Of a stretch of DNA of 49,271 nt, positions 3,647 through 45,640 are shown piece after piece. The DNA is from a virus: the IMG/VR virus record IMGVR_UViG_3300032163_000023, positions 1 through 49,271 of that record. One strand, written 5' to 3'. Under the pieces are notes generated by a model. It did no database searches and had not been told where the DNA came from. It worked only from the letters and a program-made list of their open reading frames with translations. Position 1 is the first letter of the stretch. The number at the start of each line of letters is the position of its first letter. The position numbers and the translations under genes were made by a program.

Positions 3647-3720
3647 GGCCCCGTGGCGCAATTGGACAGCGCGCCCGTCTTCGGAACGGGAGGTTCCCAG
3701 TTCGAGCCTGGGCGGGGCCG
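3647..3720 (+). tRNA. tRNA-Arg (anticodon UCG)
   Basis: The 74 bases fold as a full cloverleaf. The acceptor stem GGCCCCG pairs with CGGGGCC, with G as discriminator base. The D stem is GCGC/GCGC. The anticodon stem is CCCGT/ACGGG around loop CTTCGGA, giving anticodon TCG for codon CGA. The T stem CCCAG/CTGGG surrounds TTCGAGC. No CCA is encoded (CTT follows). It lies about 0.5 kb from the integrase gene. It may be a phage-borne tRNA or a tRNA gene used as the attachment site. Confidence 0.93.
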
Positions 3721-3813
3721 CTTCTCTCATCCGGTGCAGTCCTTTCGGCACTCCGGCCTCCCCCTTACTCTGCGTCCCTGCTGCCGGAGCGTCTGGCCAT
3801 CCCTGGCCAGGGC

Positions 3814-3875: not shown

Positions 3876-4250
3876 ATGTTGTTGACAAACAAGCGCGGAT
3901 GTGGTAGACCTAGAGTCAAGCCAATGACTGTTACGCAACTAGGTCAAGAGGTTCGAAGAGCGCGGGCAGCGAAGAGGCTGTCCCTCGATGCTCTCTCTAG
4001 GCGCACGAAGGCTCTCGACCCGACCGAGAAGGGCGTCGGGCTCAGGACGATTCACGCCATTGAGCAGGGTGAGAGCGAGCACCCCACAAATGAGACGCTA
4101 CGCCTGTTGGGGTTGGCTCTTGAACCCGAGACGGACTACCGGCACTTGGCCCTCGCCGCCTATGATGCCAACGGCGACGCGCCACCTGTCCCATTAGAGA
4201 ATCCCACATCTGCCCCGCCGGAAGCAGTCTCCGGTGCTCCACCTTCATGA
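3876..4250 (+). CDS. XRE-family HTH regulator (124 aa)
   Basis: ATG 3876 is chosen because GGAGGAAT lies 5-6 bases upstream; ATG 3924 is a later alternative. Residues from about 19 form a Cro/CI-type HTH: LGQEVRRARAAKRLSLDALS, then LRTIHAIEQGESEHPTNETL. The C-terminal tail is Pro/Ala-rich and lacks a recognisable peptidase or oligomerisation domain, so it is shorter than a full CI repressor. It overlaps the integrase start by 17 bases, so both are probably one rightward lysogeny operon. Candidate role: repressor or regulator of the leftward early promoter next to it. Confidence 0.75.
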   Translation: MLLTNKRGCGRPRVKPMTVTQLGQEVRRARAAKRLSLDALSRRTKALDPTEKGVGLRTIHAIEQGESEHPTNETLRLLGLALEPETDYRHLALAAYDANGDAPPVPLENPTSAPPEAVSGAPPS

Positions 4251-5088
4251 CAGACGACCTCCGCTAGACGCTGACGGCTACCATCTCTACCTGGTCTCGC
4301 AGTCCTATACTCAGGACACGATTCGCGGCTACTTGGGCGTCTATGCCCTCTGGGAGCGCTGGTGCCATGACAACGCCGTCGAGCCAGGTCGCGCGTCCCA
4401 TAAGGATGTCTCCCGGTGGCTCCTCGAACGCCGGCGGCTCTCCGCGAACACGGTCCGCAACGGCCTGATCGGACTCCGCTCCTACTACCGCTACACGGCA
4501 TCGTGTGGGCTCCGGAGCGGCGATCCCACCGCGGGCTTCCGCTTGCCCAAGGTGTCCCTGCCTCCAGTGGAGCCCTATCCTCACGAGGACATCATGGCGT
4601 TCGTGGCCGCCGCCCGCACGCGACGGGACAGGGCCATCCTTCTGTTGTTCTTGGACACCGGGCTCCGCTGTTCCGAACTGCTGCGGCTGCGGGACCAGGA
4701 CATCAACCGGCGTGAGCGGATCATCAGAATCCACGGCAAGGGCGGAAAGTACCGACTGGTGGCACCAGGGCAGACGGCCTGGGCCGCGCTCACGACCTAT
4801 CTGGACAGTCGCGCGGACAACGTCTGGCAGGAGGGCATCGCCACGACCTCGGGGCTGCGGAGCTGGTTGCGGCGGCTGGCGGTGAGGGCGGGATTGGAGA
4901 GGGCGAATCTACATCGGTTCAGACATGGCTTCGCGTGCGCCTTCTTGGAGAACGGGGGAGACAGCGGCTCGCTCCAAGAGTTGCTCGGCCACGAGACGCC
5001 CCAGATGACCGAGCACTACGCCGCCGCTGTGCGGCGCAAGGTGGCCCTTGACCAGCAGCGCAGATTCAGTCTGGCCGATCGGCTCTAG
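4234..5088 (+). CDS. int: Tyrosine recombinase / integrase (284 aa)
   Basis: GTG 4234 opens the frame inside the end of the XRE gene; no better in-frame start is seen. The N-terminal SAM-like core-binding domain (residues about 15-100) is followed by a catalytic domain with R145 (DTGLRCSELLRL), K172 (GKGGK), H227-x-x-R230, H253 (LGHETPQMTEHY) and the nucleophile Y262. All key residues of the tyrosine recombinase family are present. It would carry out site-specific integration and excision. The stop codon shares the palindrome CTAG with the stop of the converging XRE gene at 5085. Confidence 0.9.
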   Translation: MLHLHDRRPPLDADGYHLYLVSQSYTQDTIRGYLGVYALWERWCHDNAVEPGRASHKDVSRWLLERRRLSANTVRNGLIGLRSYYRYTASCGLRSGDPTAGFRLPKVSLPPVEPYPHEDIMAFVAAARTRRDRAILLLFLDTGLRCSELLRLRDQDINRRERIIRIHGKGGKYRLVAPGQTAWAALTTYLDSRADNVWQEGIATTSGLRSWLRRLAVRAGLERANLHRFRHGFACAFLENGGDSGSLQELLGHETPQMTEHYAAAVRRKVALDQQRRFSLADRL

Positions 5089-5393
5089 GCTGGGGCGCCG
5101 TGCCGCTCTCTGATATCGAACATCGCCAGAACGTCCTCAAGGGAGCGCTCGTCCTCGGAAGGGGCAGCGACGATTACGGCGACGGCTGCCGTAAACCGGG
5201 CGCAGTCGATGGAGAAAAGGTTGGCCATCCGCCGGACCGTAGAGAGGGCGATGTCCGACCGCTCGCCGCGCTCGATGGCGGAGATCTCACTGTAGCTCAG
5301 GCCGGAACGCTCCTCGGCCTCGCGGAGCGTCAGGCCCATCTCCTTGCGGCGCTTGCGGCAGAAGGCCCCTAACTTGTTCACGGGTTCCAGCAT
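5085..5393 (-). CDS. XRE-family HTH regulator, leftward (102 aa)
   Basis: The frame encodes LGAFCRKRRKEMGLTLREAE followed by SGLSYSEISAIERGERSD, a clear XRE HTH, and then a small helical tail. The start is uncertain. ATG 5393 has no ribosome site and lies inside the predicted -10 element; GTG 5435 is the longer alternative. It reads against the integrase and their stop codons overlap in one CTAG. An inverted repeat lies 40 bases upstream of the ATG, so autoregulation is likely. Two opposing XRE genes flanking int suggest a bistable switch. Confidence 0.8.
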   Translation of the reverse strand: MLEPVNKLGAFCRKRRKEMGLTLREAEERSGLSYSEISAIERGERSDIALSTVRRMANLFSIDCARFTAAVAVIVAAPSEDERSLEDVLAMFDIRERHGAPA

Positions 5394-5417
5394 AGGGCGA
5401 CCGCGGGGTCTTGTCAA
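5389..5417 (-). promoter_or_regulatory. Promoter for leftward XRE gene
   Basis: On the minus strand a perfect TTGACA (5417-5412), 17 bases, then TATGCT (5394-5389). The -10 contains the ATG at 5393-5391, so a transcript from here would begin just inside the annotated gene. Either the true start codon is further downstream or another promoter is used. Confidence 0.45.
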
Positions 5418-5432
5418 TTCTGATGCAAAAGT

Positions 5433-5469
5433 CACTGCCAGTCTTCGCCAATCAAGTCTCCTGGCAGTG
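5433..5469. promoter_or_regulatory. Inverted-repeat operator candidate
   Basis: CACTGCCAG (5433-5441) and its exact complement CTGGCAGTG (5461-5469) form a perfect 9-base inverted repeat with a 19-base spacer, in the 101-base gap between the leftward XRE gene and the zinc-ribbon gene. Position and symmetry fit a binding site for a dimeric or tetrameric HTH repressor. As RNA the same arms could also form a stem. Confidence 0.5.
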
Positions 5470-5494
5470 TAGCATTTCCCTGCACGGAGTCAAG

Positions 5495-5713
5495 TCACCA
5501 CCCACTCGCCCGGGCCGAGTTGCGTAGCGCCTGCTCCACCTTCGTGGCGTCACCGCCCGTCTGGCTCGCCACCTCGACGAAGCGCTCGATGCTCGGCCAC
5601 GTCAGGTCGCACTTCGGGCAGCGCACGGCCTTGGAGGGCAGGAGCTGGAGCTTGACGAGCTGACGGCAAGCCGGACAGGTCCCCTGGACGCTGTTGTATG
5701 TCTGCGGCTCCAT
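5495..5713 (-). CDS. Zinc-ribbon protein (72 aa)
   Basis: ATG 5713 has AGGAG about 10 bases upstream, preferred over an upstream in-frame start. Sequence GTCPACRQLVKLQ...VRCPKCDLTW gives two CxxC knuckles of a rubredoxin/zinc-ribbon type, followed by a helical tail with LRNSARASGW. It is divergent from the Cys-cluster HTH gene at 5785. It could be a small transcription or DNA-binding accessory of the lysogeny region. Confidence 0.6.
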   Translation of the reverse strand: MEPQTYNSVQGTCPACRQLVKLQLLPSKAVRCPKCDLTWPSIERFVEVASQTGGDATKVEQALRNSARASGW

Positions 5714-5730
5714 AAACGGTCTACTCCTTA

Positions 5731-5758
5731 TTGCAGTGCAGCGCAAAATAGCTATGAT
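5731..5758 (+). promoter_or_regulatory. Rightward promoter for Cys-cluster HTH gene
   Basis: TTGCAG (5731-5736), a 16-base spacer and TATGAT (5753-5758) precede the gene at 5785. The -10 matches the consensus at five of six positions. GGAGGT follows just before the ATG. The site lies in a 71-base divergent intergenic region. Confidence 0.45.
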
Positions 5759-5784
5759 GGAGACGGCGGGGATGGAGGTCAGGC

Positions 5785-6069
5785 ATGGTCGTGAGCGAGA
5801 TCCCCCAGCGCGTGCGCACCGACGCCCTCCCCGAATTCACGGAGTACACCGACACCGGCTGCAGCGTCTTCACCTCATGCCTCCACTGCCCCCAGGAGCA
5901 CTGTCTCTACGACGAGCGCGGCACGCTGCGCCGCTGGTGCATCCGGCGCCGGGCCGTGATCGCGGTCCTGCTGATCAAGCTCGGGGTGCCCATGCAGCAG
6001 ACCCAGACCGTGCTCAGCGCGAGCCGGCGCAGCATATACCGCTGGCTCCACGACCTGCGGCCAGCTTAG
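5785..6069 (+). CDS. Cys-cluster + HTH regulator (94 aa)
   Basis: ATG 5785 has GGAGGT upstream. Residues DTGCSVFTSCLHCPQEHCLYD form a four-Cys cluster (C-x5-C-x2-C-x4-C), followed by a C-terminal HTH (AVLLIKLGVPMQQTQTVL then SRRSIYRWLHDL). The same architecture appears in 42289-42582. Such proteins occur widely in phage genomes and are presumed DNA-binding regulators, with the Cys cluster holding zinc or possibly Fe-S. Its 3' end overlaps the converging CsrA-like gene by 56 bases. Confidence 0.65.
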   Translation: MVVSEIPQRVRTDALPEFTEYTDTGCSVFTSCLHCPQEHCLYDERGTLRRWCIRRRAVIAVLLIKLGVPMQQTQTVLSASRRSIYRWLHDLRPA

Positions 6070-6334
6070 GCTCCACCAGCTCCGAGCGGAACACCCGAAC
6101 CTCTACCGGGGCGTCGATAGCCATGCTGACGCGGCGAGCGCCGCGCCGCTGAAGTCTTATCTGGATACCAGCTTCGAGCATAAGCAAGCGGTTCATAGGG
6201 CTGCTTACCACAGTGGCCGCGCCGGGCCAGGTGAGCCGCAGGCGCACTCGGTCGCCTCTCAGCGCCAGCACTCTTAGCCGCAGGCCGGTGCTGAATACGA
6301 GTTCCTCGCCGATCCTGCGCTCCAGAACCAGCAT
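6014..6334 (-). CDS. CsrA/RsmA-like RNA-binding protein, tandem-fused (106 aa)
   Basis: ATG 6334 follows AGGA, five bases after the holin stop. The start MLVLERRIGEELVF is the classic first strand of CsrA (MLxLxRxxGE), and DAPVEVRVFRSEL (74-86) is the classic last strand (APxxVxVxRxEL). A normal CsrA joins these within about 45 residues; here about 40 extra residues intervene and look like the missing halves of two CsrA copies. Copy one is residues 1-50 with a degraded end (TWPGAATVVSSPM). Copy two is about 51-88 with a degraded first strand. In the CsrA dimer each RNA site combines strand 1 of one chain with strand 5 of the other, so this chain would keep one complete site. Family role: binds GGA in hairpin loops and blocks or stabilises mRNAs. 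Confidence 0.72.
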   Translation of the reverse strand: MLVLERRIGEELVFSTGLRLRVLALRGDRVRLRLTWPGAATVVSSPMNRLLMLEAGIQIRLQRRGARRVSMAIDAPVEVRVFRSELVEPKLAAGRGASGICCAGSR

Positions 6335-6339
6335 CGTTC

Positions 6340-6573
6340 CTAGCCGGGCGAATCCGCGGGCGGCGAAGCCGGTGCCGTCAGCTTCTTGAGCTGGTTCAGG
6401 CCGACGGCTCCGATGACGCGGAGGGCACCGACTGTCAGAGCGAGCGCCCATGTCTTCCAGTCGTCGACCTTCGAGAGGTTGGCCAGCGTCTCGAACAGGA
6501 GGGCCGACAGCGCCAGCAGGCAGAACCAGGCCGTCTCCTCCAGCCACTTGATCACGTAGGCGGGGTCAGGCAT
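6340..6573 (-). CDS. Holin-like two-span membrane protein (77 aa)
   Basis: AGGAGG precedes a double ATG; the second (6573) has the better spacing. There are two predicted membrane helices: WFCLLALSALLFETLANL and TWALALTVGALRVIGAVGLN, separated by the short polar loop SKVDDWK, with a Pro-rich tail. Size, topology and location directly downstream of two glycosidase genes fit a class II holin. The assignment rests on topology and context. Confidence 0.65.
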   Translation of the reverse strand: MPDPAYVIKWLEETAWFCLLALSALLFETLANLSKVDDWKTWALALTVGALRVIGAVGLNQLKKLTAPASPPADSPG

Positions 6574-6664
6574 CATGAACCTCCTCATCAACTTGTCCCA
6601 CTCCCTGGGATCGAACTTGCTCCGCGGCGGCCTCCGCCGAACGAACGCCAGCAGATCCAGCGGG

Positions 6665-7861
6665 TTAGGGCCACCAGCGCAAGGAGACAACGCTCTTGAC
6701 GAGGACCGGGTACGAGTAGCGGACCCGGCATGTCCCCCGCGCGTCGAGCTGGACCGTGACCGTGCCATGCCCACCCTCCGCCAGCGTCACCTTGCCGGCG
6801 TACCCTTCGTTGCTTCCATCCGGCGTGCCCCCGTCGAAGAAGGCGACGAACGCCTGCGTATTGCGGCCGGCGAGGCCGAGGCAGATCTCGAGCTCAACGG
6901 AGCGCGCCTCCCCCGGCAGGTCAAAATCGCTCCGTAGTTGCCAGGTAGCGTCCTTGTCGGGACCGTAGGGGCCCGGCTCGAGGACTCGGTTCGTGAACCA
7001 GGCTGCCACGCGGTTGTGTCTCGTCCACATCTCGTCAGCCTCCAGGAAGCGGGCCGCCTGTACGGCCTGCCACATCTCCTCCGTCATGTACTCCCAGACC
7101 CACCACAGGGCACCCCGCGCCCCGAGTTCCTTCCAGGTCCGCGACCACACCAGGATCTCCTCGGCCGTGACGGCATGGGCGGCGTTCATGCTGGCGGGTA
7201 TCGCGTCGCCGGAGGGAACGAGCGGCACCTGCGGGAAAGTCGACCGGCGGAAGTCTTCGGCGCAGACGCGGGCGGCGTGCTCCGCTCGGTCCGGCCGGTA
7301 GTACGGCGTCCCGACGGGATACATCGAGCCGTGGTAGTCCTGGGGGAACGCGGCAATAACGTGGCGGTGGAAGGCCTGGTACACATCGGCGCGGTGGTAC
7401 GAGGGCTGGGCCAGCGGGCACCAGTAGTGCGGCCTGTCCGGTGCCCCCTCCCGAATACGCCGGCAGTAGGCATCGGCCACACCTGCCGCCTGGTCTCCCA
7501 GCGACTCGAACTCGCCCTCGACATCACTCATGTAGCCAGTGGCGCCGAACACGTTCAGGGCCCTGATCCCCTGGTCGGCCTCGGCCTCCCAGCCCAGCTT
7601 CTGGTCGCCGTAGAAGACGCGCACCTGGCCGTAGACGAACTGCCAGAGCCAGACGTCGATGCCGCGCCCCAGCAGATCGGCAACGATCCGCTTGCCGCGA
7701 TCCTCATCCCAGAAGGGCCCGAACGGGTGGCCGCCATCGGCGGATTTGATGACCACGCCGCGCACGCCATGCTCGCGGCACTTCGCAGCGATGCGCAGCG
7801 CATCACCGCCCTCAGAGAGAGGCCAGTTCCAGATGAAGACGCGCTTGCCCTCGTAGGTCAT
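6665..7861 (-). CDS. TIM-barrel glycosidase-like protein, endolysin candidate (398 aa)
   Basis: The protein begins with RVFIWNWPLSEGGDALRIAA, then GVRGVVIKSADGG and GIDVWLWQFVYGQ, the alternating strand-helix pattern of a TIM-barrel glycoside hydrolase, with a likely acidic centre around MSDVEGEFE. A C-terminal beta-sandwich of about 110 residues (from about 290) may bind carbohydrate. No signal peptide is seen, so export would need the holin. Its place between the signal-peptide glycosidase and the holin makes it the best endolysin candidate. It could instead be a virion-associated polysaccharide hydrolase. Confidence 0.6.
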   Translation of the reverse strand: MTYEGKRVFIWNWPLSEGGDALRIAAKCREHGVRGVVIKSADGGHPFGPFWDEDRGKRIVADLLGRGIDVWLWQFVYGQVRVFYGDQKLGWEAEADQGIRALNVFGATGYMSDVEGEFESLGDQAAGVADAYCRRIREGAPDRPHYWCPLAQPSYHRADVYQAFHRHVIAAFPQDYHGSMYPVGTPYYRPDRAEHAARVCAEDFRRSTFPQVPLVPSGDAIPASMNAAHAVTAEEILVWSRTWKELGARGALWWVWEYMTEEMWQAVQAARFLEADEMWTRHNRVAAWFTNRVLEPGPYGPDKDATWQLRSDFDLPGEARSVELEICLGLAGRNTQAFVAFFDGGTPDGSNEGYAGKVTLAEGGHGTVTVQLDARGTCRVRYSYPVLVKSVVSLRWWP

Positions 7862-9045: not shown

Positions 9046-9405
9046 CTACCCTCTTATGGCCGACGGCTGGATCACCATGTAGCCGACCGTGGGCGTAAAG
9101 GGCTTGCCGGCACTGTCCCTGCCCTCGAGCTCGTGGTAGTACGTCCGGCTTCGCAGGGCAGCCGTGTCGGCCTCTTCGAGCGTGACCCTCACCTTGCCTT
9201 CGATCGGCGGGGTCAGCACTTCTGCCCCGTGACCGGTCGACTTCGACACCAGCGCCGGCAGGTTTGCGTCCGGTCTGGTCTTGGCCACCCAGCTGACGCT
9301 GGCGCCGGTAAGGTCCTCCGCCGTCCCATCCGGCTTCAGGATCGTCAGCGTAATCTCCTTGTACTCGCCGGCCCACATCTCAAAGTCCTGGCTCTGCTCG
9401 GTCAT
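9046..9405 (-). CDS. Ig-like baseplate/fibre protein (119 aa)
   Basis: It overlaps the stop of the repeat fibre by ATGA. The pattern is WAGEYKEITLTILKPDG, then DLTGASVSWVAK, a middle beta region, and TYYHELEGRDSAG. This matches the BppU-N-like beta domain common in siphovirus baseplates and fibres. It probably joins a fibre to the tail tip or decorates it. It is the last gene of the tail-fibre block before the glycosidases. Confidence 0.6.
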   Translation of the reverse strand: MTEQSQDFEMWAGEYKEITLTILKPDGTAEDLTGASVSWVAKTRPDANLPALVSKSTGHGAEVLTPPIEGKVRVTLEEADTAALRSRTYYHELEGRDSAGKPFTPTVGYMVIQPSAIRG

Positions 9406-12400
9406 GTCCTTCCTCCAAGCACGACGTCGGGTTCCCTCTCCCCCAGCAGCTGGATGTCGGTCTGCCTCTCGCCAGAGAGCTCCACTCTGGAAATGATCAG
9501 GTTGCTCACTATCCTGACGGCTCCGAGCTGCTCGGCGCTGATGATGCCCATGGGCACGACGGAGATGCCCCCAACGATGATCGCCGGGGCCCCGAGAGCC
9601 TCCGCAGACTCGATGCCAGGGGGCTGGAGGACGACCAGCAGCGTCGGCTGGCCAAGGGCCTCGGCCGACGGTATGCCCGTCAGCGCCACCGTCATTTCGC
9701 CGGGTATAGCGGCCGGCACTCCAAGCGCCTCCCCGCTCGCCACGCCCGGCGGGAGCAGCGTGAGGCCGCCTAGCACGATGGCAGGTACACCCAGGGCCTC
9801 CGCGGAGGCGATGCCAGGGGGCAGCAGCGCCTGGTCGACGAAGACTGTCGGCGTGCCCACGGCCTCGGCGGACGCGATGCCGGGCGGTTGCACCGTGACG
9901 CCGCCGAGGGCCATGCCCGGCGTCCCGAGGGATTCCGCAGACGCCACGCCCGCCGGCTGCATGGTCTGTGGCCCGCCACCAAGGCTGACCGTAGGCTGTC
10001 CGAGACTTTCACCCGTGGCTATACCCGAGGGCTGGACAGCGACGCCTCCGGGGACCGCGGCAGGCGCACCGAGCTCTTCCGCGCTGGCGATCCCAGGCGG
10101 CTGCAGTGCTTGAGGAGCGCCACCGAGGCTGACTGACGGCTCGCCAAGCGCCTCGGCGGAGGCTATGCCAGATGGCGAGACGGTGATGTCGCCCGGAACC
10201 GCAGTCGGTACGCCAACAGCTTCCTCCGAGTCAATACCTGACGGAAGCAGGGTCAAGCCAACATACAGCGCTGGCTGGCCGAGGGCCTCCTGGCTGGTCA
10301 CTCCAGCGGGGGAGACTATCACGCCGCCAGGAACCACGGTCGCGGCGCCAACCGCCTCACCAGAGGCGATCCCAGGTGGCTGCACGGCCTGAGGAGCCCC
10401 GCCGACGCTGACAGCTGGTTGCCCCAAAGCTTCCAGGGAACCTAAGCCAGGCGGCTGAATGGACACGCCACCGGGGGCGACAAGAGGTGTTCCGACTGCC
10501 TCCTCGCTGGAAATGCCCACCGGCTGTACGGTCTGCGGCGCACCGCCGGCATTCACTGTCGGCTGGCCCAGGGCCTCTTCGGTAGCAATCCCGGCTGGCG
10601 AGACGGCTACCCCGCCGGGTGCTGTCGTCACGGCTCCAAGCTGCTCCGCAGAGGCGATACCAGGCGCCTGGACAGCGACGCCTCCGGGGGCCATCGACGG
10701 CGTGCCCAGAGCTTCACCAGACGCGATGCCAGCAGGGAGCAGCGCCACGCCGCCGAGCGCGATGCTCGGCGCCCCGAGAGCTTCTACGGAAGCTATGCCA
10801 AGCGGCTGCAGAGAGACACCACCGAGGCCGAGGGCGGGTGTGCCCAGCCCCTCCTCGGACGGGATGCCGGGCGGCCCCACGGAGATCCCGCCAAAGGCGA
10901 TGCTCGGCTCGCCCAGCGCTTCCGCGGACGCGATGCCCGCTGGCTCAACGGCTATCCCACCGAGCGCGATCGTCGGCTGGCCCAGGGCCTCCTCAGAGGG
11001 GATACCGGGCGGCAGGGCAACGCTCTGCACCACGAGGACCGGCTGCCCGAGCGCTTCCCCGGAGGGCACCCCGGCGGGCGCCAGGGCGACCTCGCCCGGC
11101 AGGATGGCAGGCGACCCCACCGCCTCAGCGGACGAGATGCCCGGCGCGTCGAGCGTCTGGGGAGCGCCACCGAGACTAACGGTTGGGCCGCCAAGTGCTT
11201 CGCCGGAGACTATGCCGGTCAGGGCCACCGTGAGGTCGCCGAGCGCTAGGCTCGGCGTACCAAGCGCCTGCTGGCTGGGGATACCCGTAGGACTAAGCGT
11301 GACCCCGCCGACTCCGATAGAAGGCGTGCCGAGCGCCTGGGCAGACCCGATGCCGCCAGGCTGAATCGCGATGGCGCCGGGGGCCGCAGTCGGGGTGCCA
11401 AGCGCCTCGGCAGAGGCTATGCCGGGCGGCAGGCTGGTCTGGTGCGCGCTGGGACTTCCGAGCGCCTGCGCAGTGGCGATGCCCGGCGGCTGAAGGGTGA
11501 CCACGCCGAGCAGAACGGCCGGAGTGCCGACGGCCTGGGCACTCGGAATCCCCGGAGGCGACACGCCCTGCCAGGGAAACACTCCCGGAGAGCCCAGAGC
11601 TTCTGCGCTGGCGATCCCAGGAGCCGATATTGCTATGGCACCCGGAACCGCGGTCGGCGACCCAAGCGCCTGAGAGCTTCCGATCCCCGGCGGGCTGAGG
11701 CTCACACCGCCGAGGACGATCGAAGGCGTGCCGAGCGCCTCTCCGCTCGCGATCCCCCTGGCTATCACACCGCCGTAGCTGTACTCCACCACCAGCTGGA
11801 AGGCGTTTGACGGGTCGCCTTCATGCGAGTACCCAGCGCGGCACCCGAGATATGCAATCGAGTCACCGAGCCAGAAGAGAGCGAGCGCATGGCCCGACGC
11901 CCATCCCGCTCTGTCGACTATCTCCTGGATGACGGCGGCGAAGTCGGGCGTATCCTTGACCTGGTCGCCATACCACTCCTCGCTAATGGCCCAATCAACG
12001 TACGCGCTACCCTTGGCCCGGGCATCAAAGTCGTCGCGAGTGGTGAACGTCCCAGGATTGTCGTGCGCCTGGCCTCTAATCCTGATGGTCGTGGCGTCGC
12101 TGCAATAGAAGTAGGTCTTGAACGTCACCTTGGCGCTGAGGACCTTGGCACCTTGCGGGATTGTGACGTTCTGGAACCGCGTCCCCGCCTCGACGTATGT
12201 GAAGCTCCCAGCCTGGTCGTCGAGTGCGACGAAGGGATTATCCGTCAGCCACTCGTGGATGTCTCCGTACTCTTCGCTCCACCAATTCCAGGCTTGAACA
12301 TCGTCGGAGTCTGCCGCCACTCGGACAGACACCTGGCCGCCCCAGACCGTGGGGCTGCCAAGCGCCTGCGCGGAAGCGATACCGGGCGCCGCCAGCGTCA

Positions 12401-12554
12401 CGCCGCCGGGGACGGCGGCGGGCGTGCCAAGAGCCTCGGCAGAGGCTATGCCAGGGGGATAAAGAGTCTGGGCACCAGTGGCCGGAGCGCGCAGGTGGTC
12501 CTGCGCCTGGAGGGCGGAGCCGCCGGTCGGCTTGCGGAGAGCGAAGACAGCCAT
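9402..12554 (-). CDS. Giant repeat tail-fibre protein (1050 aa, about 35 repeats)
   Basis: The protein begins with a short head, two copies of a repeat (residues about 32-73), a globular beta domain (about 74-262, with tryptophans, IPQGAKVLSAKVTF and PDFAAVIQEIVDRAGW), and then about 33 copies of the same repeat to about residue 1018. The unit is about 23 residues with core PxGIASxEALGxPxhxxGG; several copies carry a PQTxQ insertion. The last 32 residues are different and charged. Repeat proteins of this kind usually form long fibres, here presumably a side or tip fibre for host contact. It lies between the spike gene and the Ig-like baseplate gene. Function is inferred from repeats and context. 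Confidence 0.7.
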   Translation of the reverse strand: MAVFALRKPTGGSALQAQDHLRAPATGAQTLYPPGIASAEALGTPAAVPGGVTLAAPGIASAQALGSPTVWGGQVSVRVAADSDDVQAWNWWSEEYGDIHEWLTDNPFVALDDQAGSFTYVEAGTRFQNVTIPQGAKVLSAKVTFKTYFYCSDATTIRIRGQAHDNPGTFTTRDDFDARAKGSAYVDWAISEEWYGDQVKDTPDFAAVIQEIVDRAGWASGHALALFWLGDSIAYLGCRAGYSHEGDPSNAFQLVVEYSYGGVIARGIASGEALGTPSIVLGGVSLSPPGIGSSQALGSPTAVPGAIAISAPGIASAEALGSPGVFPWQGVSPPGIPSAQAVGTPAVLLGVVTLQPPGIATAQALGSPSAHQTSLPPGIASAEALGTPTAAPGAIAIQPGGIGSAQALGTPSIGVGGVTLSPTGIPSQQALGTPSLALGDLTVALTGIVSGEALGGPTVSLGGAPQTLDAPGISSAEAVGSPAILPGEVALAPAGVPSGEALGQPVLVVQSVALPPGIPSEEALGQPTIALGGIAVEPAGIASAEALGEPSIAFGGISVGPPGIPSEEGLGTPALGLGGVSLQPLGIASVEALGAPSIALGGVALLPAGIASGEALGTPSMAPGGVAVQAPGIASAEQLGAVTTAPGGVAVSPAGIATEEALGQPTVNAGGAPQTVQPVGISSEEAVGTPLVAPGGVSIQPPGLGSLEALGQPAVSVGGAPQAVQPPGIASGEAVGAATVVPGGVIVSPAGVTSQEALGQPALYVGLTLLPSGIDSEEAVGVPTAVPGDITVSPSGIASAEALGEPSVSLGGAPQALQPPGIASAEELGAPAAVPGGVAVQPSGIATGESLGQPTVSLGGGPQTMQPAGVASAESLGTPGMALGGVTVQPPGIASAEAVGTPTVFVDQALLPPGIASAEALGVPAIVLGGLTLLPPGVASGEALGVPAAIPGEMTVALTGIPSAEALGQPTLLVVLQPPGIESAEALGAPAIIVGGISVVPMGIISAEQLGAVRIVSNLIISRVELSGERQTDIQLLGEREPDVVLGGRT
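9501..11762 (-). repeat. Array of about 33 tandem 63-75-base coding repeats
   Basis: The DNA encodes about 33 consecutive units averaging 23 codons, each with a GI(A/P)S-x-EALG-x-P core. The protein core is strongly kept while codons differ between units, suggesting old duplications under selection for the protein rather than a recent DNA expansion. Two further copies lie at 12336-12461, separated by the globular domain. Confidence 0.85.
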
Positions 12555-32822: not shown

Positions 32823-34133
32823 CTAGGCGATCTTCACTCTCCGGGCGTGGGCGTGCAGCCTCTCCCACGGCACCTGGACGGCCATCAGGCTCTCCAGGAG
32901 GAAGTCGTAGGAGGCGCGCGTCCGGCCCAGCTCGATGAAGGTCACCAGGTTGTCCACGGCCTGCCCGATCGGGTCGATCAGGCTCACCACGGAGGCGCCC
33001 CGGTCCTCAGGGTTCAGGTTGACGAAGAAGATGTTCTCCTCTCCGGTTGCCTGGTACCTCTTGCTGGCAGCGCCACCAGGCCGGGTCAGGTTGGCCGTGT
33101 CCGACCAGGCGGCCACGTTCCCCGTGATCTTGCCGTCGCCGTCGCGGGTCTTGCCCGCGATGGTCGTGTACAGGTAGGCCGTGCCGGCCCCACCGTCCAC
33201 GTCCGAGCGGTAGATCTTGTAGAGCAGCGCGAGCGGGTCCGCCACCCAGGTCAGGTTGGCGATGTGCTCCGTCGCCCCCGAGGTGCAGTTGCACTCGGCT
33301 GCGGCCCGCTGCTCGCCGTTCTCGTAGACGGCGGCCACCTGGTAGCGGTACACGCCGTTGGGCAGGGCACCGCCAGTGGCGATGGCCGCAGCCAGGGTCC
33401 CCGGAGCCTGGGCGGACGGCTTGACGTAGTCCGTCTCCAGGATCGGGTAGCCCCGGTACAGCGTCATGCGGAAGCCGCCCTCGTACTCGACCGTCTGCAC
33501 CTCGCGCCGTGCCAGGGTCTGGAGGCCGGAGATCTTCGACACCATGCCCTTGCTGGCGACGAAGAGGGCCGGGTCCTTGTCCGCGCCCCGGAAGCCCGTG
33601 GCCCCGTCGATCAGGTCATCGAGCAGCTTCAGGGTAACGACGGCGTTGTGGTCGACGATGTTGGTCACGATGATCTGATCCAGCCCGTCGGGGATGTACG
33701 GATCAGCCGTGGCACCCCAGAGGATGGCGAACTCGGCCTGGTTAGACATGGCCTCCACGCCAGCCTTCTGTTCCGCCACCAGCGAATCGATGAACCGCTG
33801 GGAGGCGGCTCGCTGGAAGCCGGTCACGGCGCCCCAGTAGTGCAGGGGCTTCAGCGTGACCGTGGGCCGGTCGTAGGTCGACTGGACGGCACCCGCCCTG
33901 TTGTCGACGAGCTCGCCCTCGAAGGCGGCCGCGCCGTGAGCCGTCCGGCGGACGATCTCGTGCACCCGCCCCTTGGCCTGCTTGATGGGCATCACCTGGA
34001 GCAGCGGCTGCAGCCGCAACAGCTCCTCGACGAGGGCCGGCTCCAGGTCCTCCGGCTGGAGCGCCGTCCCCGACGCCCCGGCGGCCGTGAGGGCCTTGGC
34101 CAGCTCGCTCGTAGCCTTGATTAGCCGTTCCAT
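32823..34133 (-). CDS. Major capsid protein with Ig-like insert (436 aa)
   Basis: The protein has an N-terminal helix, then LLRLQPLLQVMPIKQAKGRV (E-loop-side segment), RPTVTLKPLHYWGAVTGFQR and FRMTLYRGYPILETDYVKPS, a pattern of HK97-fold capsid proteins. Between about residues 243 and 350 an extra beta domain is inserted: NGVYRYQVAAVYENGEQRAA and WVADPLALLYKIYRSDVDGG, typical of fibronectin/Ig-like modules. The C-terminal RGASVVSLIDPIGQAVDNLV then resumes the capsid fold. The insert probably protrudes from the capsid surface. Just upstream lie a duplicated hairpin and the scaffold-like gene. Confidence 0.82.
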   Translation of the reverse strand: MERLIKATSELAKALTAAGASGTALQPEDLEPALVEELLRLQPLLQVMPIKQAKGRVHEIVRRTAHGAAAFEGELVDNRAGAVQSTYDRPTVTLKPLHYWGAVTGFQRAASQRFIDSLVAEQKAGVEAMSNQAEFAILWGATADPYIPDGLDQIIVTNIVDHNAVVTLKLLDDLIDGATGFRGADKDPALFVASKGMVSKISGLQTLARREVQTVEYEGGFRMTLYRGYPILETDYVKPSAQAPGTLAAAIATGGALPNGVYRYQVAAVYENGEQRAAAECNCTSGATEHIANLTWVADPLALLYKIYRSDVDGGAGTAYLYTTIAGKTRDGDGKITGNVAAWSDTANLTRPGGAASKRYQATGEENIFFVNLNPEDRGASVVSLIDPIGQAVDNLVTFIELGRTRASYDFLLESLMAVQVPWERLHAHARRVKIA

Positions 34134-42979: not shown

Positions 42980-45640
42980 CTACACCGCCTTTATCCGCTG
43001 CCCGCGGCTCTCCAGCCGACAGGCGGCAAATACCCGGAGGCAGTCGGCGCCATCATCTGGGTTACTCCGGCCCGTATTATCCGCTGGCTCCTCGGCATAG
43101 ATGCCCGAGCTGATCTGCTTGCGGTGATACTGGCCCATATCTCGCCGGAGCCAGCGGCAGCGCGGATGCACCAGGAGGCCCCGGTGGCCCTGTGCGTCCC
43201 GAATCATGCGCCGGACCTCCTTCACCCCGTCCACCACGCCGGTCTTCGTGGGAACCTTGACGGGCACGCCGAGCTGGCGGATGTAGGACTGAAGCTGCTT
43301 ATCGGTCGAGCCGCAAAATGCGCTCGAAGGCTTGCGGTAGGCGCGGGCCTGGCCCGTGAGCTCGGCCTTGCGCCCCTCCTCCCAGGTGGTCTCCTGCCAG
43401 TACCAGATGCCCGTCTCGCGGCCAGCCGCGTCCAGCTCGCGCTTCTCCGAGAGCCACTTCACGACCTCCTCGTAGAGGGTCATGTTCGTGTACATCTCGT
43501 CGAAGACGTGGACCTGGCCGTTTGGCATCTCCTGGGCCGCCAGTAGGACCATCGGGTCGGGCGAGAAACCGTCGTCGCCAAGCCAGACTACAGGCACGCC
43601 GTCGGTATACTCTGCCTCCTCCGTCACGTTGGAGTCGGGGTCGCCGGGGGCGTCCACCCAGTTCTCGTAGACCAGGCCCTTGCGGGAAACGGTCCGACAT
43701 AGGGACTGGCAATTCCACGTGTCGTCATCTGACTGCAGCCGCCGGTTGATCGCATCCGCCTTCTTGATGTGGCCCGTTGCCTCGCGGACCCGCCCCTGGC
43801 AGTCCTCCCAGAGCAGGCAGTCGTGGGGCTTCATCTCGACGCCGCGCTTCACCCGCTCGGCGTCCTCGCAGGTGGCGCAGGGCTCCATGCAGTCCAATAA
43901 GCAGCTCGCGTAGACCGCGATCCCGCGGGCCGGTGCCTCGGTCAGCAGCCGGTTCATCGGGCCGAACGATGTCACCATGGCGGAGGCATAGAGCGTCTGG
44001 GCCGGGTAGCGGTCGCTGGACATGGGCATCCCGACGAACTGCTGGTAGACGTCCCAGGCCATGAGGTCGAACTCATCGGCGACGCAGAAATTGGGGTGGG
44101 GGCCAGAGGTTGCGCCGATGGTGTTCCCCACAAGCAGACCCGAGCACAGAGCGTAGTTGTGCGTCCCCTCGACCGTGATGTCGTAGCGCCAGTAGCGCCT
44201 CGCTGTCCTCTCCAGGCGGCCTATCCTTACGGGCACGGCACCGAAGCCGCTGTGCTGAGTGATCGGGCCGCCGCGCCACCGTTTGTACCCCTGTCCCTTG
44301 GGTCCCTTCGTTGACACATCGATCCACGGCGCGACCAGTTCCGTTAGCCTTGCACTCCCAGGACTGCTACAGCAATACTCGTACCTCTCACCCGTCTTGC
44401 TCGCAGCCGGCCGCCATCGGCCTGTGACGCCCAATCGCCGGAGATAATCGCCTGCGGCCTCACGCTCGCCTCGGTCAAATGACATGGCGCAGATTTTCCA
44501 AAAGCCAGTCGGGCGGCCACGACCGTGCCATGGGCCACTCACCGAATAGCCGCCATCATCCATGACCCAGACAGCCAGACCGAGCCGACTGAGTCGGGCG
44601 AAGGTCCCCAGCGGTATTCTCTTGACGCCCGTTCCATACCAGTCGCGGCGGGCTAGGCTAAACGGCAGCGCCGCCCCGCTCTCCCACGCAAAGGTTGCTT
44701 TGGCCGGGCGATCAGCCACCGTACCGCCAAACTCACTGAAAACCTCAACTATCCAGTCGAGGTAACTTCGCTGCCAGTAGGCATGGCTAACCCGAAGAAC
44801 GCCCGCATTATCCTTAACCGAGCCGTCTCCAAGCATCAGCCCAAGCAGAACCTGCGCTTGCTCGTCCGAGAGTATTTGCCCATGCACGAGCACCTCGTCA
44901 CCCTCTGAGAGACAGCCGAGTGGAACCTTGCGGCCACCAGGTACGACGACCTCGTGGCCGGGGGTCAGCTTGAAGTCGCTCGGCCCGCGTTTTCCTGGGT
45001 CGAGGCGTCCTCGGATCCACTCAGTCGTGGGGCCGTTGCTGAACCAGTCAACAATCCGCCGCCATTGCCATTCACCGAGGCCAAAGTCATATGAGAGAAC
45101 TGGCCCTGGCAGTCTCTTTGCTACGATCTCTTCGATGCGAACCGGCCCATCAGGGGTGATGACTCTCTGGTAGCCCGGCAGGCACCCAGGGAGCACTTCC
45201 AGCCGGCTCCCGTTCTTCCAGCGCGTCTCCGACATCAGCGGGTCCTGGGCCAGGGCCCGGCGGAAGTGTGGGTCGCGGAAGTACTCCTTCAGGTAGCTGT
45301 AGTTGAGGTTAGCCTGGCGCTGGATGGCACCAACGTGGGAGGTCTGGAAGCCGTCACGGTAGTGGTGGTCAAGGAGATGCAGGATGGACAAGTCGCGGGT
45401 CTTTCCAGAGCCTCGGGCCCCGTGGACAGCGGCCGAGGATACGCGACCGAAGTACATGTCGGCGAGAAACCGGAACGGCGCTACGTGTTCCGGGCAGACG
45501 GCCCGCCAGGCGATGTGGAAGCCCAGGATGTACCAGATCCAGTACCAGAGCTGCTCGTCGGTCTGGGGCCCGATCTCCTTGAGCCGCCGGAGGGATGCGA
45601 CCGCCCGTTCGCGCTGGTACTGCTCAAGAGCAGTGCTCAC
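42980..45640 (-). CDS. terL: Terminase large subunit with intein (886 aa precursor)
   Basis: GTG 45640 overlaps the previous stop as GTGA. Residues 74-81 GARGSGKT are the Walker A motif; FCVADEFD (518-525) is the Walker B motif; the C-terminal nuclease has VVWLGDDGFSPDP and the acidic RSNPDDGADCLRVF. An intein of 354 residues (C153 to N506) sits between Walker A and B. After splicing, 152 + 380 = 532 residues remain, normal for TerL. Role: ATP-driven DNA packaging and cutting, docked on the portal. Confidence 0.92.
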   Translation of the reverse strand: MSTALEQYQRERAVASLRRLKEIGPQTDEQLWYWIWYILGFHIAWRAVCPEHVAPFRFLADMYFGRVSSAAVHGARGSGKTRDLSILHLLDHHYRDGFQTSHVGAIQRQANLNYSYLKEYFRDPHFRRALAQDPLMSETRWKNGSRLEVLPGCLPGYQRVITPDGPVRIEEIVAKRLPGPVLSYDFGLGEWQWRRIVDWFSNGPTTEWIRGRLDPGKRGPSDFKLTPGHEVVVPGGRKVPLGCLSEGDEVLVHGQILSDEQAQVLLGLMLGDGSVKDNAGVLRVSHAYWQRSYLDWIVEVFSEFGGTVADRPAKATFAWESGAALPFSLARRDWYGTGVKRIPLGTFARLSRLGLAVWVMDDGGYSVSGPWHGRGRPTGFWKICAMSFDRGEREAAGDYLRRLGVTGRWRPAASKTGERYEYCCSSPGSARLTELVAPWIDVSTKGPKGQGYKRWRGGPITQHSGFGAVPVRIGRLERTARRYWRYDITVEGTHNYALCSGLLVGNTIGATSGPHPNFCVADEFDLMAWDVYQQFVGMPMSSDRYPAQTLYASAMVTSFGPMNRLLTEAPARGIAVYASCLLDCMEPCATCEDAERVKRGVEMKPHDCLLWEDCQGRVREATGHIKKADAINRRLQSDDDTWNCQSLCRTVSRKGLVYENWVDAPGDPDSNVTEEAEYTDGVPVVWLGDDGFSPDPMVLLAAQEMPNGQVHVFDEMYTNMTLYEEVVKWLSEKRELDAAGRETGIWYWQETTWEEGRKAELTGQARAYRKPSSAFCGSTDKQLQSYIRQLGVPVKVPTKTGVVDGVKEVRRMIRDAQGHRGLLVHPRCRWLRRDMGQYHRKQISSGIYAEEPADNTGRSNPDDGADCLRVFAACRLESRGQRIKAV
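44123..45184 (-). mobile_element. Intein with LAGLIDADG endonuclease (354 aa) in terL
   Basis: In the 886-residue precursor the intein runs from C153 (CLPGYQRVITPDG, block A) to N506 (CSGLLVGN, block G), with T507 as the +1 residue. Block B has TPGH (226-229), block F has YDITVEGTHNYAL (D487). Two LAGLIDADG motifs are present: LLGLMLGDG (265-273) and LGLAVWVMDDGG (353-364), both with their acidic residue. The residue before the final Asn is Gly rather than the common His. It splits the extein at LPG/TIGATSGP, just before Walker B. Confidence 0.93.

Follow-up and report, generated by a model that had tools for sequence, protein, structure and literature searches.

CsrA is a model for post-transcriptional control. 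Its natural RNA site is composed of strand 1 of one subunit and strand 5 of the other, and residues L4 and R44 are critical for RNA binding (PMC7652899); the region of strand 5 makes contacts with bases (PMC7652899, PMC3791407). Two sites are needed for bridging; the dimer required both of its sites to repress glgC fully in vitro, and hfq is a known single-site target (PMC7652899). In RsmA, the strands of the sheet follow the order b5B-b2A-b3A-b4A-b1B, and R6 and E46 (R8 and E64 in RsmN numbering) form an inter-subunit salt bridge (PMC3791407). Genes for CsrA on phages and plasmids are already known (PMC7366521), and a text search of that paper showed that neither the word “tandem” nor the word “fusion” is used in it. 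The locus presented here carries a csrA-like gene in which two copies are joined within one chain.

The tandem csrA gene and its neighbours

The window, i.e. the whole stretch of DNA that was analysed, is a linear IMG/VR virus record of 49,271 bases. Its csrA-like gene had been given the right coordinates and length in a first-pass annotation; the strand is corrected here, the gene lying on the minus strand. The features of the locus are:

6014-6334, minus strand: tandem CsrA-like gene (putative fused pseudo-dimer), 106 aa; ATG at 6334, stop codon at 6016-6014
6221-6334, minus strand: copy 1, CsrA strands 1-4, residues 1-38; strand 1 keeps L4 and R6, true strand 5 and the helix are absent
6314-6331, minus strand: strand 1 of copy 1, residues 2-7, LVLERR; first half of the putative composite RNA site
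6197-6220, minus strand: shared strand, residues 39-46, in place of strand 1 of copy 2 and without the L4 and R6 residues
6071-6193, minus strand: copy 2, CsrA strands 2-5, residues 48-88
6077-6112, minus strand: loop between strands 4 and 5 and strand 5 of copy 2, residues 75-86, APVEVRVFRSEL; second half of the putative composite RNA site
6017-6070, minus strand: C-terminal tail, residues 89-106; predicted to be disordered, without coding G+C pattern, overlapping the convergent gene on the plus strand
6335-6342, minus strand: TAGGAACG, directly 5′ of the csrA ATG, with a ribosome-binding-like AGGA that overlaps the stop codon of the upstream gene
6340-6576, minus strand: holin-like gene upstream of the tandem csrA, 78 aa, two hydrophobic segments
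5785-6069, plus strand: small helix-turn-helix gene, convergent, overlapping the 3′ end of csrA by 56 bp

Pfam family PF02599 matches the 106-aa protein twice, at residues 1-42 and about 57-93, both matches being significant, and a six-frame search of the whole record returned the same two CsrA matches. As a whole, the protein scores 49.5 bits against this family (E 4.3e-13; cut-off 27). When the halves were matched separately against the CsrA profile, a check proposed in the first-pass annotation, residues 1-51 aligned with profile positions 1-42 (E 9.8e-7), and the C-terminal half alone aligned with positions 13-49 (E 4.9e-5). Five long tailed CsrAs (99-123 aa) and one canonical CsrA, taken as controls, gave one CsrA stretch each. 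Compared to the canonical homodimer, with its one domain per chain, two domains are thus present within 106 aa. Residues A75-P76 correspond to A36-P37 of E. coli CsrA, and copy 2 is therefore offset by 39 residues, the copies being joined without a linker; R83 likewise corresponds to R44 of E. coli CsrA. The observation of a fused tandem CsrA is confirmed by these data.

The earlier annotation had also read a full CsrA strand 1 at the start of the protein and a full strand 5 at its end, with a decayed end of copy 1 and a decayed start of copy 2 in between. Residues 1-14 (MLVLERRIGEELVF) are indeed as quoted there. So are residues 74-86 (DAPVEVRVFRSEL), but strand 5 does not end the protein, since 20 more residues (87-106) come after it. 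Similarly, the tandem arrangement holds, but two separate decayed strands are not present, residues 39-46 serving as both. Copy 1 has a G+C content of 0.82 at third codon positions, and copy 2 one of 0.71. This coding pattern is absent from the last 18 residues or so, as expected because of the overlap with the convergent gene, and residues 89-106 look like read-through into that gene.

The stop codon of the holin-like gene, for which a Pfam search gave no match, is followed after 5 nt by the start of csrA, and this place behind a holin-like gene suggests that csrA may be expressed late and in association with lysis. Elsewhere in the window, a tRNA-Arg (tcg) gene (3647-3721, plus strand) is located near a tyrosine integrase gene (4234-5088). 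The gene for the terminase large subunit (42980-45640, minus strand) contains an intein-like insert that is about 350 residues long and includes a LAGLIDADG endonuclease domain; this insert (residues 155-506, unmatched) is absent from the relatives L003 and L006. A 1,050-aa protein (9402-12554, minus strand) consists mostly of short repeats (GIASAEALGTP...), and a repeat protein akin to it is found at the end of the related contig L193. The protein at the capsid position (32823-34133, minus strand) matches, among phage records, only the Leptospira phages LE3 and LE4 (26.5% identity).

Relatives on phages and plasmids

The same tandem layout, sought elsewhere as the first-pass annotation had advised, was found in three branches besides that of the window protein, namely a viral contig, a group of plasmids and an isolated phage. 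Pfam detects two CsrA stretches in each of these four branches, with copy-to-copy offsets of 38-41. On the viral contig (IMGVR_UViG_3300029259_000679), the tandem has 114 aa and is 28% identical to the window protein over 88 residues; its copy 1 ends at residue 38, and copy 2 follows at once as LLLVTKKVTQSITIG. Tandems of about 113-128 aa, annotated as “carbon storage regulator”, are encoded on 14 Xanthomonas/Stenotrophomonas plasmid records, including NC_007507.1 of X. euvesicatoria 85-10. The isolated Pseudomonas phage vsMR (OR687460.1) encodes a 92-aa tandem that is unannotated. On plasmid plB of X. citri, a canonical csrA lies directly downstream of the tandem csrA; the two genes adjoin in the same orientation (locus L071, 3001-3634), and the pair is present twice on the plasmid.

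Direct viral and genome searches with the window protein yielded no match at E<=1e-3, so that alignments were needed to find relatives, and at this threshold the window protein is without close relative. About 1,100 bacterial genomes were searched with a tandem profile at strict E cut-offs, one of these searches being run without a positive control; among the matches listed, none spans the whole tandem, and mainly the second copy is covered. The widest-looking of these listed matches (L120) was read out and proved to be a single CsrA, as did the sequences at other loci with weak partial matches. The 123-aa CsrAs of phi297 type, also considered as candidate tandems, contain one Pfam stretch only. 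No CsrA match was found in related phages with an 86% identical portal or a 69% identical gene at the lysin position, the records of which may be fragments. In the related contig L195, LysM/M23-peptidase-like and metal-hydrolase-like genes (5392-7350) are found past the phage genes; these may be host flank, and the related element may therefore be a prophage.

In three plasmid homologues, dN/dS was 0.116, 0.155 and 0.161 over the whole gene, and below 0.3 for both copies, i.e. the plasmid branch is under purifying selection. A tree of copy-2 sequences, built on 39 columns only, is compatible with a single fusion event as well as with several (AU p value of 0.55 for one clade). Copy 2 of the window protein shares no more than 36% identity with any of the single CsrAs that were examined. 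Such divergence, together with a tail that overlaps another gene, might be taken to indicate a CsrA pseudogene in decay, or two csrA genes that were joined in frame by chance and are devoid of function. However, the frame is open and preceded by a ribosome-binding-like site, the coding G+C pattern extends across both copies, three other branches display the same layout with the same residues retained, and the plasmid branch is under the selection just described, all of which leaves a functionless gene with very little probability. Rather, since the same design is encountered in another virus, in a Pseudomonas phage and on plasmids, the tandem protein appears to be a genuine variant of the CsrA family, so far undescribed.

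Predicted fold and putative RNA site

The structure of the window protein was predicted with AlphaFold2 from an alignment of only two sequences. Mean pLDDT of the model is 78.1; values between residues 1 and 80 are about 88-92, and confidence is low in the tail, from residue 85 on. Strands are predicted at residues 2-7, 11-14, 19-26, 29-36, 39-46, 50-52, 58-64, 68-74 and 79-82. In agreement with the pseudo-dimer first suggested for this protein, the model is thus a confident single chain of nine strands, compared to ten in the CsrA dimer, the difference arising because residues 39-46 stand for both strand 5 of copy 1 and strand 1 of copy 2. A model of the tandem protein P0004 has a similar strand pattern at lower confidence. 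The helix between strands 2 and 3 typical of RsmN/RsmF is not seen in the window model, DSSP assigning H only at residues 54-56, in copy 2.

A fold search of the PDB with the single-chain window model gave no significant match, perhaps because CsrA is a strand-swapped dimer and the search was a single-chain one. In a Foldseek search against BFVD (E<=0.001), the window model matched 12 proteins and the P0004 model 11, the two sets being largely identical. The top match, A0A6J5RUQ1 (114 aa, “Carbon storage regulator”, uncultured phage), is 40% identical to P0004 over 102 columns. A0A6G5YEX0, A0A6G5YD98, A0A2H4PHU8, A0A345BNA3 and A0A2I7QK84 are among the other BFVD matches. The matched proteins are predicted phage proteins, mostly of 81-114 aa and aligned over most of their length, with canonical phage CsrAs (60-75 aa) placed lower in the list; the set may be mixed, because it includes some longer targets (160-201 aa) and a few with large rmsd values.

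The strand pairing and overall geometry that we infer are based on the published topology of RsmA and on the sequence register. Strand 4 of subunit A lies beside strand 1 of subunit B in RsmA, so that a short turn can join the chains at this point. Two CsrA copies fused head to tail without a linker would then fold as one pseudo-dimer, in which the fusion turns these neighbouring strands into a hairpin (residues 29-36 and 39-46), presumably formed by strand 4 of copy 1 and the shared strand. With a join of this kind, copy 1 loses its strand 5 and its helix, which would destroy one RNA site, the surviving site combining strand 1 from copy 1 with strand 5 from copy 2. Alternatively, fused chains could dimerise by swapping strands between molecules, resulting in a larger assembly with at least two composite sites and unchanged CsrA logic. 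CsrA is itself a strand-swapped dimer (PMC3791407), and the absent strand 5 leaves an open edge in the sheet; nevertheless, the single-chain model is confident without a partner, and the hairpin of strand 4 and the shared strand makes swapping unnecessary. We consider an assembly of this type unlikely.

The distribution of RNA-binding residues over the two copies is consistent with the single-chain pseudo-dimer. L4 and R6 of strand 1 are present in copy 1 only, with V and S in copy 2, while A36, P37, V40, R44 and E46 of the strand 5 region are present as a set in copy 2 only, with W, P, A, S and P in copy 1. In copy 2, strand 1 is still present as a strand but lacks the residues that serve RNA binding. 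In an alignment of six tandem proteins covering all four branches (P0001, P0004, P0006, P0007, the L069 protein and P0009), the invariant columns are M1, L2, L4, R6, A75, P76, V79, R83 and E85, plus one proline in the loosely aligned tails; in CsrA numbering, the set comprises L4 and R6 in strand 1 of copy 1, and A36, P37, V40, R44 and E46 in copy 2. Across the first three branches, copy 1 has S, K or T at position 44, and copy 2 has S, K or L at position 6; in copy 2 of vsMR, position 6 in the same register is L. In a set of 54 non-redundant single CsrAs, L4, R6 and R44 occur without exception. These 54 proteins, together with shuffles, served as reference for scoring the strands of five proteins from the first three branches. 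The kept strands, 1 in copy 1 and 5 in copy 2, scored inside the range of real CsrAs, and no shuffle reached their scores; the other two, strand 5 in copy 1 and strand 1 in copy 2, scored below every single CsrA in 5/5 proteins and were mostly shuffle-like. The exception is strand 1 of copy 2 in P0004, the least decayed, which is still recognisable, with L4V and R6K.

Compared to the two complete sites of the canonical homodimer, one full set of site residues per chain is thus found by sequence comparison, present once and not twice in every branch, as the first-pass annotation had anticipated for the window protein. This supports a single composite putative RNA site, to which copy 1 contributes strand 1 and copy 2 strand 5. 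The retained residues could instead be structural, RNA binding having been lost and the protein serving as a decoy or adaptor, e.g. by binding a partner protein of CsrA. Part of the invariant set might be accounted for in this way by the R6-E46 salt bridge of RsmA (PMC3791407). However, L4, A36, P37, V40 and R44 are invariant too; RNA binding depends critically on two of these, L4 and R44, and bases are contacted by the strand 5 region (PMC7652899, PMC3791407), which makes a purely structural role most improbable. Sequence and model together make it likely that the window protein is a single-chain, nine-stranded pseudo-dimer with one RNA site, most likely binding one GGA-type element per chain.

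Possible function and place among known CsrA systems

If it is monomeric, binds RNA and is unable to bridge, as we infer, the window protein may regulate the translation of single-site messages, or may compete with host CsrA without bridging. Since full repression of glgC needs both sites and hfq has one, a one-site protein could repress single-site messages and compete without bridging at two-site ones. As a single chain, it would not mix subunits with host CsrA, and avoiding mixed dimers with the host protein may matter on phages and plasmids. More tentatively, these proteins may represent a distinct and widespread class of one-site, single-chain CsrAs on phages and plasmids, which would occupy GGA sites without bridging or exchanging subunits with the host, such that the mobile element could regulate its own messages, or free host messages from CsrA, independently of the host dimer. 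Two-site bridging by CsrA has so far been probed with engineered one-site dimers; natural one-site single chains would allow direct tests of both bridging and subunit exchange, and would show a way for mobile elements to insulate an RNA regulator from its host homologue. The occurrence of members on an isolated phage (vsMR) and on sequenced plasmids makes such testing practical.

In the open-access literature searched, nothing was found on tandem, fused, monomeric or one-site natural CsrA, in line with the first-pass annotation, which knew of no described example, and the tandem relatives stand unremarked in databases as “carbon storage regulator”. Judged by its sequence, the window protein is a member of the CsrA superfamily, and not a canonical two-site homodimer. 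It resembles the CsrA/RsmA family (PF02599; E. coli CsrA, Pseudomonas RsmA/RsmE) in that the profile matches both halves, the strand pattern is alike, and the set L4, R6, A36, P37, V40, R44 and E46 is retained once. Typical members of the family are homodimers of 65-75 aa with two sites, whereas the window protein has two copies, nine predicted strands and one set of site residues in one chain. It also falls below the cut-offs of the NCBIfam csrA equivalogs (42.1 of 70.1 bits for TIGR00202, 39.7 of 73 bits for PRK01712), as do P0006 and P0007, while P0004 passes.

RsmN/RsmF of Pseudomonas aeruginosa is likewise a CsrA relative with rearranged chain topology and a preserved RNA surface (PMC3791407). 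It features a helix between strands 2 and 3 and is still a two-site dimer, whereas the window protein combines a fusion of the two copies with the loss of one strand 5. CsrA dimers reduced to one site by engineering (R44A in a single subunit) share with it a single site on a dimer body, the site being a working one in the former and putative in the latter; they consist of two chains with a point mutation, whereas the window protein is a natural single chain. As reviewed in PMC7652899, full glgC repression required both sites in the experiments of Mercante 2009 with such one-site dimers. Finally, the long phage CsrAs, exemplified by the phi297-type “bacteriophage control infection” protein (123 aa), are also phage-borne, longer than 100 aa and similar in strand 1, but they consist of one complete CsrA with an unrelated C-terminal extension, whereas the window protein is made of two CsrA copies.
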